DNA from: a virus
DNA length: 64,000 nt
Reading direction: 5' to 3' (one strand)
Virus record (IMG/VR): IMGVR_UViG_3300031521_000030
Coordinates: 1-64,000 of that record
Shown in pieces: positions 3,828 through 58,754 of this stretch. The notes under the pieces were generated by a model. That model ran no database searches. It saw only the letters and a list, made by a program, of their open reading frames with translations, and had not been told where the DNA came from. The translations under genes and the position numbers were made by a program. How positions within the stretch are numbered: the stretch's first letter is position 1; every line of letters starts with the position of its first letter.

Positions 3828-4061
3828 ATGAGTAAGCCACCCGACAAGAAGGACATCCCCAGCCTATCAGGCCCGACCGGCAAGTTGCCAAAGGGTTGGG
3901 GCACCAAGGAAGTCCAAAACGGCACCCACACGCTAACCATTGTCACCTCCCCCGGAAACTTTGAATGGCAGGTCGGCAAGCTGGCCCGCAACCGTGGCCG
4001 GATGCAGTTTTCGCCTTGGAATTTCAAGGGCTCGCCGGTAAGCATTGTTGCCCGGCCATGA
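3828..4061 (+). CDS. Hypothetical protein, 77 aa
   Basis: A small basic protein with a Pro/Lys-rich N-terminus, followed by a beta-strand pattern (HTLTIVTSPGNFEWQVGKL). The ATG follows the HNH stop by one base, and its own TGA overlaps the next ATG (ATGA at 4058). It is the first gene of a three-gene chain ending in primase. I do not recognise the family. Confidence 0.75.
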   Translation: MSKPPDKKDIPSLSGPTGKLPKGWGTKEVQNGTHTLTIVTSPGNFEWQVGKLARNRGRMQFSPWNFKGSPVSIVARP

Positions 4062-4402
4062 GCGCACCCATATTTGAACGGGCGGCCCGCGATGCCATTA
4101 TTGCCCGCTATGCTGGAATCCTCCTTTCGCACGGGGTTGGTGGCTGCACTTTGCTCCACCTTGTCCATAAGCACGCCGACGAATACATCGTCGATGCCCT
4201 GCAATGGGCGGCCTATGAGCACCTCGTTATCAATGGCACGGGGGAAGGCCCCGAACCTTTAGGGTTAGGCTTCCTCGCCCCCAAGCGGAAGGAGATGCCC
4301 TACCTTCCATCAACCCAGAATACGGCGAAGCCATGGGAGTCCCAAGGCCATGTCCCTTTCTACCGCAATTTCTCAAAAACCAGCCGAAAGCACCGCAGAT
4401 GA
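4058..4402 (+). CDS. Hypothetical protein, 114 aa
   Basis: A helical protein starting in the ATGA overlap at 4058 and ending in the ATGA overlap with primase at 4399. The N-terminal half (FERAARDAIIARYAG) looks like a compact helical domain; the C-terminal 30 residues are basic and probably disordered. Tight coupling to primase suggests co-expression. No family recognised. Confidence 0.75.
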   Translation: MSAPIFERAARDAIIARYAGILLSHGVGGCTLLHLVHKHADEYIVDALQWAAYEHLVINGTGEGPEPLGLGFLAPKRKEMPYLPSTQNTAKPWESQGHVPFYRNFSKTSRKHRR

Positions 4403-5412
4403 ACGAAGCCCCTTTACGCGAATTGCTTGGCGAATTAAATGTCGATGTCGTCCAGACGAACGCCAACGGATGGCTCCTTGCATTCTGTCCCTTTGCCGAA
4501 TGGCTCCATAACAGTGGCCAAGACCGCAACCCCGATTTTTATGTCCGCGTGGAGCCCACGGGAATTTCCGGGTTCCACTGTTTCGCATGCAAAACCCACG
4601 GGCGCATGTCAACCCTCGTCCGCAAGTTGGAGTATTACCGGCAGGAAAAATACCGGGGGCTGGCCGTCAAAGCCGACCTCATGGAAACCCCGGACGAGTT
4701 CCCACCCTATGAGCACGACTCGGCAATCCAAGTGGAGCCGGACCCGCTCAATAAAGCGGCCTACCTTGGGATGTATCCCTTGGCATGGGAGGATGAGTGG
4801 AGCCGCAAATACCTCGCCGGGCGGGGCGTTGGCAAGGCAACCGCTGAACTCCTTGGCCTCGTCTATGACGATGACGAATGCCGCATCCTCTTCCCCGTCC
4901 TCAACCACAAGAGCGACCTATTTGGGTTCACCGGACGCACCATATTAGAGAAGCACCAATTCCCCTTCCCCCGCTACCCCAAGGTCCGAGATTACGCGGG
5001 GTTGCCAAAGGAGAGGCTCATCCTTGGAGAGCAGTTAATTGAAAAGGGCAAGCCCTTGCTCTTGGTGGAGGGGCTCTTTGCCTTGGCCCACATGATTGAG
5101 ATTGGTGCGCGGGAGTTTTGCAACCCGGTGGCCACCATGGGCTCAAACATGAGCAAATACCAACGGGACATCCTCATAAGCTACAACGCCCCCATCCACC
5201 TCCTTTATGACAATGATGAGGCGGGGGAGCTTGGCTTATTTGGCCCAATGAATGCGGAAGGGGAACGCATGGGCGGGGGCGCATGGGATAAGGTCCATGA
5301 GCATGTCCCAACCTTCCTGCCGCTCTACCCCGAGGGTATCAACGACCCGGACAACCTAACAACCGAGATGCTGCAAGAGATGCTCTTTTCGGATGATAGC
5401 CTTGCCAATTAA
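4399..5412 (+). CDS. DNA primase (zinc-binding plus TOPRIM)
   Basis: A 337-residue primase that would make RNA primers at the replication fork. The zinc-binding site is C30, H37, C61 and C64, the last two in CFACKTHG. The TOPRIM core shows LLLVEG (E224) and YDNDEAGELG (D271, D273), the metal-binding residues of the family. No helicase domain is fused. The start at 4399 shares an ATGA with the upstream gene. A longer frame from 4333 exists but would overlap more and adds a Pro-rich tail. The stop lies inside the next phage promoter. Confidence 0.92.
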   Translation: MNEAPLRELLGELNVDVVQTNANGWLLAFCPFAEWLHNSGQDRNPDFYVRVEPTGISGFHCFACKTHGRMSTLVRKLEYYRQEKYRGLAVKADLMETPDEFPPYEHDSAIQVEPDPLNKAAYLGMYPLAWEDEWSRKYLAGRGVGKATAELLGLVYDDDECRILFPVLNHKSDLFGFTGRTILEKHQFPFPRYPKVRDYAGLPKERLILGEQLIEKGKPLLLVEGLFALAHMIEIGAREFCNPVATMGSNMSKYQRDILISYNAPIHLLYDNDEAGELGLFGPMNAEGERMGGGAWDKVHEHVPTFLPLYPEGINDPDNLTTEMLQEMLFSDDSLAN

Positions 5413-54477: not shown

Positions 54478-55425
54478 ATGACCGCCAAACAACTCGCTCC
54501 CTACCTCGACCGGGTTAGCAAGGTGGAACTCCCGCCTACAACGTGCGGTTGTGCCCATTGCATGAAGGCGGCCAAGCAACCCGGTGGGGAAACCGTCCCC
54601 AAGGATGACCATTTCATCAAGGAGGAGCTTGCCCTTGCCGCCTTATTGCTGGCCTTGTGGGAAGCCGCTGTGGCTTCGACGGGCATTGAAGCGACCATCA
54701 AGGCTGCCGGGGCTACGCGCAACGTCAACGTGATTGACACCACATTGGAAAACGCCGACGAGGACATGGCCAAGGCAACCTTCACCGATGAGGGTAAAAA
54801 GGAATCGGAGGATACCCTCCACAAGTCCTTTATGGTTGGCTTCCTATTGGCCGGGGCCGCTGCCGCTGCTGCCGCTCGCATGGCCGCCTCCATTAAGCGC
54901 ACCCTCTTTGGCTACAACTCTCAGGTCGGCTATTGGACCAACCATTACTTCGCCCGCATCGCGCACCCGGCTCTTATGGAGGCCGTGCTTGCCGATGGGG
55001 TTAGCATCACCGGCACAAATGATTTGGAGGCCGTGCTAGAGGCGGTCATGGCGAGGGTTATCAAAGGCACCGAGGTTTATTGGCGCATCGTGGCCAACCA
55101 AACAATGAGCCGGGCGCACCATTATGGCATCCTTCGCGGGGCGCAAGAGCAAGGGAAGCTGGGCTACCGCCTTGTGGCCGTTATTGATCTTCGCACCACC
55201 GACCTTTGCCGAGGGTTAGACGGGAAGGAGTTTTGGGTTGCCGATGCCATTGAGCATCTGGAACGGGTTGCAGAAACCGACCCCGCCGACATCGGCAAGG
55301 TTGCCCCATGGGTCAAGTGGGATGATGTAAAGGGCAAGTCGAACGCTGAGTTGTCATCCTTGGGGGTGCTTTGCCCTCCCTTCCATAGTTTTTGTCGGAC
55401 GACGCTTGTAGCGTTCTCGACTTGA
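54478..55425 (+). CDS. Phage head morphogenesis (SPP1 gp7/Mu F-like) protein
   Basis: 315 residues. The C-terminal VIDLRTTDLCRGLDGKEFWV...CPPFHSFCRTTL is the Cys/Thr-rich signature of the family. A long Ala-rich helical region precedes. It is packaged as a minor head protein in relatives. Start 54478 is just after the portal stop. An HNH gene interrupts the module directly after it. Confidence 0.87.
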   Translation: MTAKQLAPYLDRVSKVELPPTTCGCAHCMKAAKQPGGETVPKDDHFIKEELALAALLLALWEAAVASTGIEATIKAAGATRNVNVIDTTLENADEDMAKATFTDEGKKESEDTLHKSFMVGFLLAGAAAAAAARMAASIKRTLFGYNSQVGYWTNHYFARIAHPALMEAVLADGVSITGTNDLEAVLEAVMARVIKGTEVYWRIVANQTMSRAHHYGILRGAQEQGKLGYRLVAVIDLRTTDLCRGLDGKEFWVADAIEHLERVAETDPADIGKVAPWVKWDDVKGKSNAELSSLGVLCPPFHSFCRTTLVAFST

Positions 55426-55457: not shown

Positions 55458-56141
55458 ATGTTCAAACTACCCCTTCGCCGTAGGAAAAAGCTCTGTGGAA
55501 GACACTCCCTTGTTGATTTGGCTGATTTGGGTATAATCCTCAATACGGCTACAAATTGGGCTCTGTCTGACCATGGTTACGCCGTGGCCACAATAGGGAC
55601 CCGCATGCTTTACCTGCACCGTCTATTGATGGGGGACATCGTTGAGGGAAAACAGGTTGACCACATCAATGGGGACAAGCTGGACAACCGCCGGGAGAAT
55701 CTTCGGGTATGCACGGCAAGGGAAAACCAAGCCAACACGGCCAAGCAAGCCCGCCCAACCTACTCAAAGTTCAAGGGGGTTTGCCAATCGGCGGGCCATT
55801 GGCGGGCATATATTGCAACATCGGATAAGCAGACCCACCTTGGCAGCTTTGCAACCGAAGGGGAGGCGGCCTATGCCTACAACCTTGCTGCCATAGAACG
55901 CTTCGGAGCATTTGCAAAATTAAACGATGTTCCCGAGGTTCCTCTCAACCGCCTCGACAATAGGCAACCGGGGGCAACCGGCTTCAAAGGGGTAAAGGCA
56001 CGCACAAATGGGACGTTCATTGCGCGTGCTAAAGTTAAGGGCAAGGAGGTTCATATTGGGACATTCCCAACCGCAGAGGGGGCAAGCAGAGCCCGCGCCC
56101 GCTACATTGGCCGGACAACATTGGTCCCCTTCACAACCTAA
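55458..56141 (+). CDS. HNH homing endonuclease with two AP2 domains
   Basis: 227 residues. The HNH core (YLHRLLMGDIVEGKQVDHIN, NRRENLRV) is followed by two AP2-like DNA-binding repeats (about 95-150 and 165-225, both FKGV...G(S/T)F). It cuts and copies itself into a target in relatives. Its own canonical promoter differs from the phage type. It sits between head morphogenesis and protease genes, a typical homing site. Confidence 0.88.
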   Translation: MFKLPLRRRKKLCGRHSLVDLADLGIILNTATNWALSDHGYAVATIGTRMLYLHRLLMGDIVEGKQVDHINGDKLDNRRENLRVCTARENQANTAKQARPTYSKFKGVCQSAGHWRAYIATSDKQTHLGSFATEGEAAYAYNLAAIERFGAFAKLNDVPEVPLNRLDNRQPGATGFKGVKARTNGTFIARAKVKGKEVHIGTFPTAEGASRARARYIGRTTLVPFTT

Positions 56142-56146
56142 TCTCT

Positions 56147-56160
56147 GCAACAAGTTGCAG
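56147..56160. repeat. Dispersed palindrome copy 21 (AA centre)
   Basis: TGCAACAAGTTGCA between two HNH genes. Confidence 0.9.
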
Positions 56161-56202
56161 TTTTGACTTGCCGTGGATTGTGACCATGAGATGAGTCCGT
56201 CC

Positions 56203-56736
56203 ATGTTCCGTGTTTGCAAAACCGACGACGACCAGCAGATTGCCCCCATCGTGGGGCACCCCAATTATTTTGTGGGCTCTGATGGTCGCGTCTATTCCTG
56301 TGCCCCACTGAATGGCCGGGGAGCACCTCTCCCCTTCTCAAGCAAACGAGAGCTACTCATCCAGCACACCCCCAAGGGTTATTGCACCATAATGGTTGAC
56401 CGGAAGACTGTGGCGGTCCATTCCCTTGTTCTTAACCACTTCGTTGGGTCCCCTAAAGAGGGCCAACAATGCCGCCACTTGAATGGCAACAAGGACGATA
56501 ATGCCATGGGGAATCTTGCATGGGGCTCCGGGCTGGATCAGCACAATGACCGCGTGCGGCATGGGACAGCACTCATGGGAGTTAGGCACCCCCAAGCAGT
56601 TCTGGACCAGATCAAAGTTTGCCTTGTTCGTCGCCTTCGTGCTCGGAAGTGGTCCCTTCGGGAAATTGCAAAGGCCCTTGGGGTAAGCACTACTCCTATT
56701 CGCCATGTTTTCAACGGGGGGTATGCCCATGTTTAA
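56203..56736 (+). CDS. HNH endonuclease that has captured the 5' end of the protease gene
   Basis: 177 residues. Residues 1-13 (MFRVCKTDDDQQI) match the first 13 residues of the downstream protease (MFKVCKMDDDQQI) except at two positions, while the codons differ. Then a NUMOD-like region (FVGSDGRVYSC), HNH-type RHLNGNKDDN core and a C-terminal HTH (LREIAKALGVSTTPI). ATG 56203 is chosen from the match; ATG 56191 is upstream in frame. It overlaps the protease start by eight bases. Confidence 0.82.
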   Translation: MFRVCKTDDDQQIAPIVGHPNYFVGSDGRVYSCAPLNGRGAPLPFSSKRELLIQHTPKGYCTIMVDRKTVAVHSLVLNHFVGSPKEGQQCRHLNGNKDDNAMGNLAWGSGLDQHNDRVRHGTALMGVRHPQAVLDQIKVCLVRRLRARKWSLREIAKALGVSTTPIRHVFNGGYAHV

Positions 56737-57286
56737 GGTCTGCAAAATGGATGACGATCAGCAAATCGTCGAAGGCGAAGTCTATGCCCCCAATACTCTC
56801 GACACCCATGGCGAGATGATGACGGCGGATGCGGTGGAGACTATTTGCCACCGCTTCATGCAAATCCACTCCCTCAAGGAGACGATTGATACGCAGCACA
56901 ACAATCTTCCCGCCGAATGCTACCCCATTGAATCCTTCATTGCCCGCAAAGGCGACCCGGACTATACCGAGGGCGCATGGGTGCTGGCCGTTAAGGTAGA
57001 GGACCCAACTTTGTGGGCCTCCGTTAAAAAGGGGGAACTCAATGGCTTCTCCTTCGAGGCATACGTGAGCAAGCAGCAAGCGATTGTCGAGTTGCAGGTT
57101 TTCCCCCAGAGCATAGGGGAAACGGAGGAGGCCGAGGGCCATGCTCACTTCTTCATTGCCGAGTTGAATGCCGATGGGAAAGTTGTTTCCGGGCGCACAA
57201 GCGAGGCCGCCGGACACTCCCACATGATAACCAAGGGCACCGCCACGTTGGAAAGTGCTGGACATGCCCATCGTTTTGTCGTCTAA
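56729..57286 (+). CDS. Prohead protease (XkdF-like)
   Basis: 185 residues. EGEVYAPNTLDTHGEMMTADA and an NGFSFEAYV-type strand match the XkdF/prohead serine-protease fold that trims scaffold and capsid. The C-terminus holds three GH(A/S)H motifs (about 142-183), a His-rich tail possibly metal-binding. ATG 56729 is favoured by the copied 5' end in the HNH gene; ATG 56723 is possible. Confidence 0.84.
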   Translation: MFKVCKMDDDQQIVEGEVYAPNTLDTHGEMMTADAVETICHRFMQIHSLKETIDTQHNNLPAECYPIESFIARKGDPDYTEGAWVLAVKVEDPTLWASVKKGELNGFSFEAYVSKQQAIVELQVFPQSIGETEEAEGHAHFFIAELNADGKVVSGRTSEAAGHSHMITKGTATLESAGHAHRFVV

Positions 57287-57293
57287 CAAGATT

Positions 57294-58754
57294 ATGACTC
57301 GCAACCCCATCACCGTCCAAAAGGTCGTCACCCTTCTATCCGACGCGCATCCAACTTTCGTCTCTCTTGTTGGGCATGGGGCTAATCAGACCCCTTTCAA
57401 GTCCGTCAAGGTAGCCGAGCTTCCACAAACTCAACCCATTGCAGACACCACTATGAGCAAACCCGCCGAACCCGTTACCAAGGGCGCAGTCGGGGCACCG
57501 CCAGCCGGAACCGAGATCAATAAGATCGTGTTCGCGGGTGAGCAGTTCCCGACCGATGCCGCCGTCACTACCTACCTTACCGCCAAGGGTTATTCCAACT
57601 TCGCCGTCGAGGCCGTGGATAGCAGCTTCGTGGTAAAGGCCATGGACGAAAACGCATTTGAATCCATCACGCCAATTGCGGCTACGGATGCGGGTGTTAC
57701 CTTTTTTGTCGGTAAACTGGCCGCCGGGGCCGATCCCATTGCCACAGCCGTTATTGCCGCCCCCGTGGTTGCAACCAAGGCCGAGGTTCCCGTTGTCGTT
57801 GTCGCCCGCGAGCGCACGAAGGTTAGCAAGGCCGAGGTTCGCCGCAACCAGTTCAAGGTTACCAAAGCCGACGAAACCCCGGACCAACTCGTCCAGAAGT
57901 ATTGCGACTATTATTGCTGCTGCGGGCCGGAGGTTGGGGAGCTAACGCTTGCCGACGCCATCGCCGATGTCAATTGCGGTCTGCCAGTTGGGTATTGGGA
58001 TGTCAATGATGCCTTCCGCCAAGCCCTCCGCAACCGCATCCTCACCGGGGACGTTGCTGGCATTGCTGCCCTTGCAACTCAATTTGGTGAAATACTTGTC
58101 AAACTCTGCAACATCTGTTCCACTACCACCATGAAATCCGAAGACAACCAAGCCGCTATCGACGCACTCCTCCCGAGCCGCAAGGACTTCGGAACGCAGG
58201 TGCCCAAAGTTGTAGCCATCCCCGCCGGGACAACTGACCCAATCATTGCGCAGCCCGGCACCATCCCGGCAACCCCCGGCACGATTGCCCTGCCAACCGG
58301 CGGCAACACCCTGCCCGTTATTAGCCAACCCGGAACCATTCCGGCGGTTGTAGCTGGCGCGGTTGTAGTCCCCGGCGGTGCGGGCTCCCCGGCGGAACCC
58401 TTGGCCCAACCCGGAACTCTTCCCGCCGTGCCCGGTGCGGTAACTTTGCCAACCGGCACCGTGCCCGTTGTGCCCTCCGACCTTGGCTCCCTAGCCACGG
58501 CGATGACCACTTTGCAGAATACGCTGAACACCCTCATCCAAGGGCAAACATCCCTCGCAACCAAAAGCGACATTTCGGAAGTTTCCGAGAAGGTCACCAA
58601 GGCAGAGGGCCGCTTGACCGTGATTGAAGAGGTCCGGCAGATTCGCAAGAGCGCGGACTCCGACGACGCTACCGTCAACGGGGGCGCTGGCAGCCCTGCG
58701 GGGGAAGCCCCGAAGTTGACCAAGACTCAGAAAAACATTCTTGGCATCCAGTAA
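57294..58754 (+). CDS. Large scaffold-like / protease-fused head protein
   Basis: 486 residues. The N-terminal HPTFVSLVGHGANQTPF resembles a start frequent in prohead scaffold and XkdF-type C-terminal regions. A Cys-rich segment (YCDYYCCCGPE, about 203-213) precedes a Pro/Gly/Thr repeat region built on QPGTIP and LPTG units (about 300-410) and a coiled C-terminus. Probably scaffold or decoration. Note ARERT near 178, weakly like the RTR tags. Confidence 0.72.
   Translation: MTRNPITVQKVVTLLSDAHPTFVSLVGHGANQTPFKSVKVAELPQTQPIADTTMSKPAEPVTKGAVGAPPAGTEINKIVFAGEQFPTDAAVTTYLTAKGYSNFAVEAVDSSFVVKAMDENAFESITPIAATDAGVTFFVGKLAAGADPIATAVIAAPVVATKAEVPVVVVARERTKVSKAEVRRNQFKVTKADETPDQLVQKYCDYYCCCGPEVGELTLADAIADVNCGLPVGYWDVNDAFRQALRNRILTGDVAGIAALATQFGEILVKLCNICSTTTMKSEDNQAAIDALLPSRKDFGTQVPKVVAIPAGTTDPIIAQPGTIPATPGTIALPTGGNTLPVISQPGTIPAVVAGAVVVPGGAGSPAEPLAQPGTLPAVPGAVTLPTGTVPVVPSDLGSLATAMTTLQNTLNTLIQGQTSLATKSDISEVSEKVTKAEGRLTVIEEVRQIRKSADSDDATVNGGAGSPAGEAPKLTKTQKNILGIQ

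Follow-up and report, generated by a model that had tools for sequence, protein, structure and literature searches.

An HNH endonuclease gene carrying a copy of the start of the adjacent prohead protease gene, and recurrence of this architecture in other phages

We report that an HNH endonuclease gene (HNH2) in a 64,000-nucleotide stretch of viral DNA (the window) opens with a copy of the first 13 codons of the prohead protease gene that follows it. The original first codons of the protease lead into the HNH2 frame, with the fusion at about codon 13, and HNH2 is followed by a complete protease gene with a diverged, mostly synonymous start. The architecture recurs in HNH genes of other phages, and in a group of mycobacteriophages where an HNH gene has entered cas4 the borders of the inserted module are apparent. 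We consider it likely that the protease gene was invaded at its 5' end by HNH2, acting as a free-standing endonuclease of the homing type, which would make HNH2 a 5' phage counterpart of the mORF and WHO elements and a natural home-and-rescue element; its cleavage and homing are inferred.

The duplicated start at the HNH2-protease junction

HNH2 runs from an ATG at 56203 to its own stop at 56734-56736, which is overlapped by the ATG of the protease gene at 56729, such that the two genes, both on the plus strand, share 8 nt (Table 1). The first 13 residues of HNH2, MFRVCKTDDDQQI, and those of the S78-type prohead protease, MFKVCKMDDDQQI, align without gaps with 11/13 residues and 28/39 nt identical; among the eight changed codons six changes are synonymous and two non-synonymous. 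The likeness begins at the ATG, with only 12/40 nt matching directly before it, and ends at codon 13, with only 8/21 nt matching directly after. A degenerate pattern of 38 nt of the shared start had these two gene starts as its sole matches in the 97-kb record, and of 2,000,000 pairs of 13-codon starts drawn at random within the window only about 8 had at least nine identities. Since the genes are adjacent, the copies are in exact register and random pairs so rarely match, chance is excluded and the likeness is real. The original prediction that the HNH gene carries the first 13 protease codons, with mostly synonymous changes, thus held.

Table 1 Features at the HNH2-protease junction (window coordinates)
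Feature	Coordinates	Strand	Remarks
Head morphogenesis protein (Mu gpF-like)	54478..55425	+	Upstream neighbour; Phage_Mu_F 1.5e-06, phrog_115 minor head protein
HNH1	55458..56141	+	Unrelated second HNH endonuclease gene (phrog_99 type); HNH_3 3.1e-12, phrog_99 6.9e-45
14-bp palindrome TGCAACAAGTTGCA	56146..56159	.	Landmark of the ancestral protease upstream region; in relatives the motif immediately precedes the protease gene
HNH2	56203..56736	+	Start-captured HNH endonuclease: HNH_3, with sub-threshold NUMOD4-like and C-terminal HTH matches
Captured start	56203..56241	+	N-terminus of HNH2; 13 codons homologous to the protease start
Prohead protease, XkdF-like (Peptidase_S78_2)	56729..57286	+	Putatively invaded gene; PF14550 9.5e-24, phrog_15223 2.5e-60
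Second 13-codon start copy	56729..56767	+	Part of the intact protease

The protease matches 93 phage records and has portal, head morphogenesis and major capsid genes as neighbours. By family cut-off HNH2 is an HNH nuclease of the phrog_59/HNH_3 type (phrog_59, 2.9e-27; HNH_3, PF13392, 9.5e-06, 25.6 bits with a cut-off of 24.8), and its cleavage and homing activities are inferred. Its NUMOD4 match (0.011, 16.4 bits) is below the cut-off of 23.4, as are the matches to several HTH models. The N-terminus of canonical HNH relatives reads M..EEWRxIPGF-YEVS; HNH2 lacks this leader, and the protease start sits exactly before the NUMOD4-like region (..IVGHPNYFVGS). Other family members aligned with HNH2 are only 31-36% identical to it. 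Had the 13 residues been a widespread independent domain the original prediction would have been refuted; this was not the case, the HNH relatives having other N-termini. A group I intron or intein with a homing endonuclease gene was considered and rejected: no splicing is required, since the reading frames give a full protease beginning at its own ATG and an HNH2 with its own stop.

Another record of the locus, L002, differs from the window at 1 base in 6388 (G/T at 56195, 8 nt before the start codon of HNH2). This is the same phage, which backs the assembly but does not provide an independent relative, and apart from L002 no relative with the same HNH2 insertion was found among the viral contigs. 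The ATG of the head morphogenesis gene (54478) was set from the L002 open reading frame. HNH1 directly precedes the palindrome, and the junction therefore holds two different HNH genes in tandem. No copied start was detected in HNH1, the N-terminus of which aligns to other phage HNHs from residue 1; it begins MFKL and was considered as a second captured start, but given this alignment with unrelated HNHs the MFK match is attributed to chance. The gene following the protease (57255-58754) has an internal repeat-rich stretch with QPGTIPA/QPGTLPAVPG repeats, possibly a scaffold-like linker.

Which copy of the start is the older

In the window 43 nt separate the palindrome, TGCAAnnnnTTGCA, from the HNH2 ATG downstream of it, and 569 nt separate it from the protease ATG. 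Of 14 lineages of relatives that have the palindrome, 11 have it immediately before the protease (L004, L005, L006, L010, L012, L013, L016, L023, L027, L029 and L034), identical contigs being merged in this count. Moreover, in HNH-free relatives (L003, L006, L010, L023, L027 and L039) an intact protease gene comes directly after the head morphogenesis gene or the intergenic palindrome, which is the outcome that the original prediction had named as its check. The proteases of these relatives are 40-50% identical to that of the window (nearest 50.5%). Among 27 distinct relatives the commonest residues at positions 3 and 7 are R and T, as in HNH2 (R3, T7), while M7 of the window protease is present in 0/27. 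Because the palindrome precedes HNH2, we infer that HNH2 occupies the original start and that the protease has the second copy; R3 and T7 point the same way. The evidence that HNH2 kept the old start is moderate, the relatives being distant, and the two residues are consistent with it. No close HNH-free relative of the window phage was found, and the recoded stretch of the window and the direction of change could thus not be measured.

The further claims of the original prediction fared as follows. That the HNH gene landed at the protease start and kept the old start as its N-terminus is supported by the position of the palindrome, R3/T7 and the HNH-free relatives. That the protease start was duplicated downstream is confirmed as to the presence of a second copy; in the mycobacteriophages discussed below, however, the second start is a recoded copy travelling with the HNH gene and not a local duplication. 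As to the claim that the HNH gene uses the original expression signals of the protease, HNH2 does sit behind the original upstream region of the protease, while use of its promoter and start signals is inferred only.

The palindrome is in itself a frequent element. The motif TGCAAC-NN-GTTGCA has approximately 22 sites in the window (e.g. 3780, 7190, 11136, 13065, 15929 ... 63520) and is spaced every 2-4 kb along the whole record; TGCAANNNNTTGCA has 35 sites in 97 kb, with ≈0.2 expected by chance in the window. It is equally dense in the Rhizobium phages L338C (47) and RHph_I4 (45), and in JP1 (33) and DLP_3 (31). An operator, segregation or replication site is suggested by the spacing of the motif and by how often it directly precedes genes.

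Recurrence in other phage HNH genes and a natural experiment in cas4

HNH loci were collected from viral contigs, phage genomes and bacterial genomes, giving 247 distinct phage or prophage HNH genes. For each locus any frame just upstream of the HNH domain was compared with any frame around the HNH stop. Low-complexity and R/P/G/A-rich segments were removed and the downstream segment was limited to -75..+25 of the HNH stop, as the unfiltered survey gave false positives from Arg/Pro/Gly-rich frames (L201, L244, L152); the filter also dropped one true case (L239, RusA). Same-locus duplications scoring ≥45 were present for 11/247 HNH genes vs 1/1500 cross-locus pairs. The 11 positives take in three near-identical mycobacteriophage loci, a doubtful repeat (L370) and a probable 3' case (L257). 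L370 has a stop inside the repeat and was not counted as a start copy. The loci were the best-scoring of each scan and no random sample, and 11/247 is therefore not a population frequency.

Several unrelated HNHs thus have as their N-terminus the start of their own downstream gene, a recurrence that goes beyond the original prediction. Apart from the window, the 5' cases are L254 and L258, sister HNHs carrying 24 residues of the MRVLIGCEYS protein; L239, with the start of RusA (PF05866 2.8e-36; score 43 unfiltered); L355, with that of a gene on a Corynebacterium kalidii contig (MRFCECVEVPTGRPDPR); L198 (MIFLRFPDES); L033 (MSFWTRML), an HNH of another type; and the mycobacteriophage group (cas4). 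L355, a family member at another locus, has a clear NUMOD4. In all inspected 5' cases except cas4 the downstream gene starts at or within approximately 13 nt of the HNH stop; in the cas4 cases the recoded start lies approximately 40-50 nt inside the HNH 3' end. The two copies in L033 are identical over 25 nt and not recoded, so recoding is not universal. The window, L239 and the L254/L258 pair fall far from one another in HNH trees, so the start-copy design arose or persisted in separate lineages. The residues 'VAC' vs 'IGC' in the MRVL starts could not be used as a marker of old and new copies because the scan pattern itself required MRVLVACE.

Some loci showed other arrangements. In L436 (2738-3321) the HNH ends in ..DPPNEGDL, a copy of the C-terminal ..TPPNEGDL of the gene upstream, and the HNH of L257 (2921-3515) is followed by a remnant of the end of its upstream gene; these short matches are possible 3'-end mirror cases and remain tentative. 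The MRVLIGCEYS gene of L254 has HNH genes on both sides, since another HNH ORF starts where it ends (4051-4764).

The mycobacteriophages provide a natural experiment. In Mycobacterium phage McGuire cas4 is interrupted by an HNH gene. The remnant on the upstream side (annotated gp72) has 99.3% identity with Dynamix and similar empty relatives as far as codon 29, whereas the cas4 gene downstream matches empty relatives, at 97-98%, only from about codon 42. The stretch between is recoded, reading YQYQKKPRSVSQLSQYDKCP in the McGuire downstream gene vs YTYEKKPRSVSQLSQFDKCP in Dynamix; codons 11-30 show nine synonymous changes and three that alter the amino acid. Among the carriers McGuire, Squee, Lesedi and PascalRango the HNH body has 1-3/538 differences and the recoded cas4 codons 11-41 have 0/93, compared with 39/93 between Dynamix and the carriers; in the following 207 nt of cas4 only 4-11/207 positions differ. 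The native cas4 fragments left behind differ among the carriers. Because codons 11-41 are identical in the carriers and far from Dynamix, while the flanks differ, the mobile unit in these phages is the HNH gene plus a recoded cas4 5' end. The gp72 'exonuclease' is a cas4 remnant. The HNH inserted in cas4 begins MPENLTRNE, which resembles the MPTDLTRNE at the start of cas4 in phage MrGordo; on the strength of few residues, this HNH also appears to have acquired a captured start prior to later moves. The donor of the recoded cas4 start was not identified, as the closest DNA match to a non-carrier in the phage collection reached only ≈77%. In the carriers the annotated cas4 starts (MAYYLARV...; L096:2389-3818, L345, L346 and L347) have the recoded conserved N-terminus upstream of them, overlapping the HNH 3' end, and were likely called too late.

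Proposed mechanism, rival explanations and known systems

We propose that the mobile unit would comprise the HNH gene and a recoded target start, which for the window is by analogy with the mycobacteriophages. The endonuclease would cut an empty allele within the first tens of codons, for the protease near codons 13-30, and donor-templated repair would insert the HNH gene and restore the essential gene with a start that should resist cutting. The native start would then drive the HNH, with HNH2 using the promoter and start signals of the protease, and the protease would be translated by coupling from the HNH2 stop. Cutting, resistance of the carrier gene, homing, promoter use and translational coupling are all inferred, there being no cleavage, homing or expression data. 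That the recoded start belongs to the mobile unit in the window is likewise an analogy: only the divergence between the copies is visible and only 13 codons are duplicated.

A less likely alternative that remains possible is passive insertion, in which illegitimate recombination placed the HNH gene at protease codon 13 and duplicated the 5' end in tandem; the duplication would have been retained because the protease is essential, without being part of any mobile unit. There is no direct evidence in the window that the second start travelled with the HNH, and the two L033 copies show no difference over 25 nt, as expected of a recent local duplication. Against this stand at least seven different target genes with the same relative position, and the recoded mycobacteriophage start, identical (0/93) in carriers with differing flanks. 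Recombination between relatives appears unlikely: here ordinary homologous recombination within the first codons would have brought in, from a diverged phage, an HNH that already had a protease-derived start, and the two alleles of the start would have become neighbours without any homing. The 28% nucleotide divergence of the copies is plausible for two related phages, and nuclease genes are known at exchange boundaries (PMC10448857), but a donor with the HNH-start fusion would still be needed and the repeated design in unrelated HNHs is left unexplained.

It is also conceivable, but very unlikely, that the copied N-terminus has a function in the HNH as a protease- or scaffold-targeting peptide, which localises the enzyme or allows its packaging in the procapsid. 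The peptide is well kept (11/13) despite the divergence of the DNA (28/39), and a protein-level constraint on the HNH copy is thus possible; other members, however, copy starts of non-capsid genes (RusA, cas4 and the MRVLIGCEYS protein), for which capsid targeting is no explanation.

The home-and-rescue reading has a bolder form, which taken as a whole we favour by a narrow margin, namely that phages hold a widespread class of natural home-and-rescue drives, in which free-standing HNH genes enter the 5' ends of essential or near-essential genes, fuse to the start and take over the expression signals, while a recoded, cleavage-resistant start travels along, in several HNH lineages and in some with a mirror-image 3' version. 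If true, this would explain how a free-standing endonuclease can enter the start of an essential phage gene without being lethal to its carrier, and would account for many odd N-termini and split starts among annotated phage genes. In practice it flags annotation errors, e.g. short "exonucleases" of the gp72 type and late cas4 starts in carriers. Near-identical filled and empty cas4 alleles already exist in McGuire and Dynamix, phages of the standard, non-pathogenic laboratory host M. smegmatis mc2 155, and the idea is thus directly testable.

The reading given by the original prediction is supported and extends to other phages; its logic of carrying a target end is shared with known elements. 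We found no description of the start-carrying phage design in the literature searched, which covered few subscription papers, and a prior description is not excluded. The nearest 5' precedent is provided by fungal mitochondrial introns with N-terminal duplications (PMC7315562), for which homing endonucleases have been proposed as drivers. As proposed for HNH2, a second copy of the N-terminal part of a gene comes with a mobile element located towards its 5' side; one copy serves the gene and the other is a remnant. Those elements are organelle introns, whereas in the HNH2 type a phage HNH gene stands free, shares its frame or overlaps with the captured start, and neither protein requires splicing. 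The fungal mitochondrial mORFs (Allomyces atp6; Glomus atp6, atp9, cox2 and nad3; PMC3630166) likewise combine an endonuclease ORF with a foreign target end into a hybrid gene and leave the native end as a remnant, but there the C-terminus is replaced and the enzymes are LAGLIDADG or GIY-YIG, while in the phage case it is the N-terminus and an HNH. In the yeast WHO elements at FBA1 (PMC7282813) an endonuclease and a diverged, resistance-conferring target copy form the mobile unit and the displaced native piece stays; these differ in using the FBA1 3' end and an intein-derived enzyme in a nuclear genome, and cleavage and gene conversion have been shown for WHO but not for HNH2. Free-standing phage HNHs such as the T4 mob genes and skunavirus HNHs share the HNH nuclease and a position beside or inside essential genes; they have a DNA-binding C-terminus, for which HNH2 shows only sub-threshold HTH matches, and often overlap-coupled translation, which for HNH2 is inferred. 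The papers searched on these do not mention a copied target-gene start. Finally, the synthetic home-and-rescue drive HomeR (PMC7968924) also places a nuclease in an essential gene together with rescue of that gene. The HomeR rescue copy is recoded. HomeR is an engineered CRISPR drive in Drosophila, whereas the phage case is a natural viral arrangement the mechanism of which is inferred; if the inference is true, viruses evolved the design logic of engineered rescue drives.
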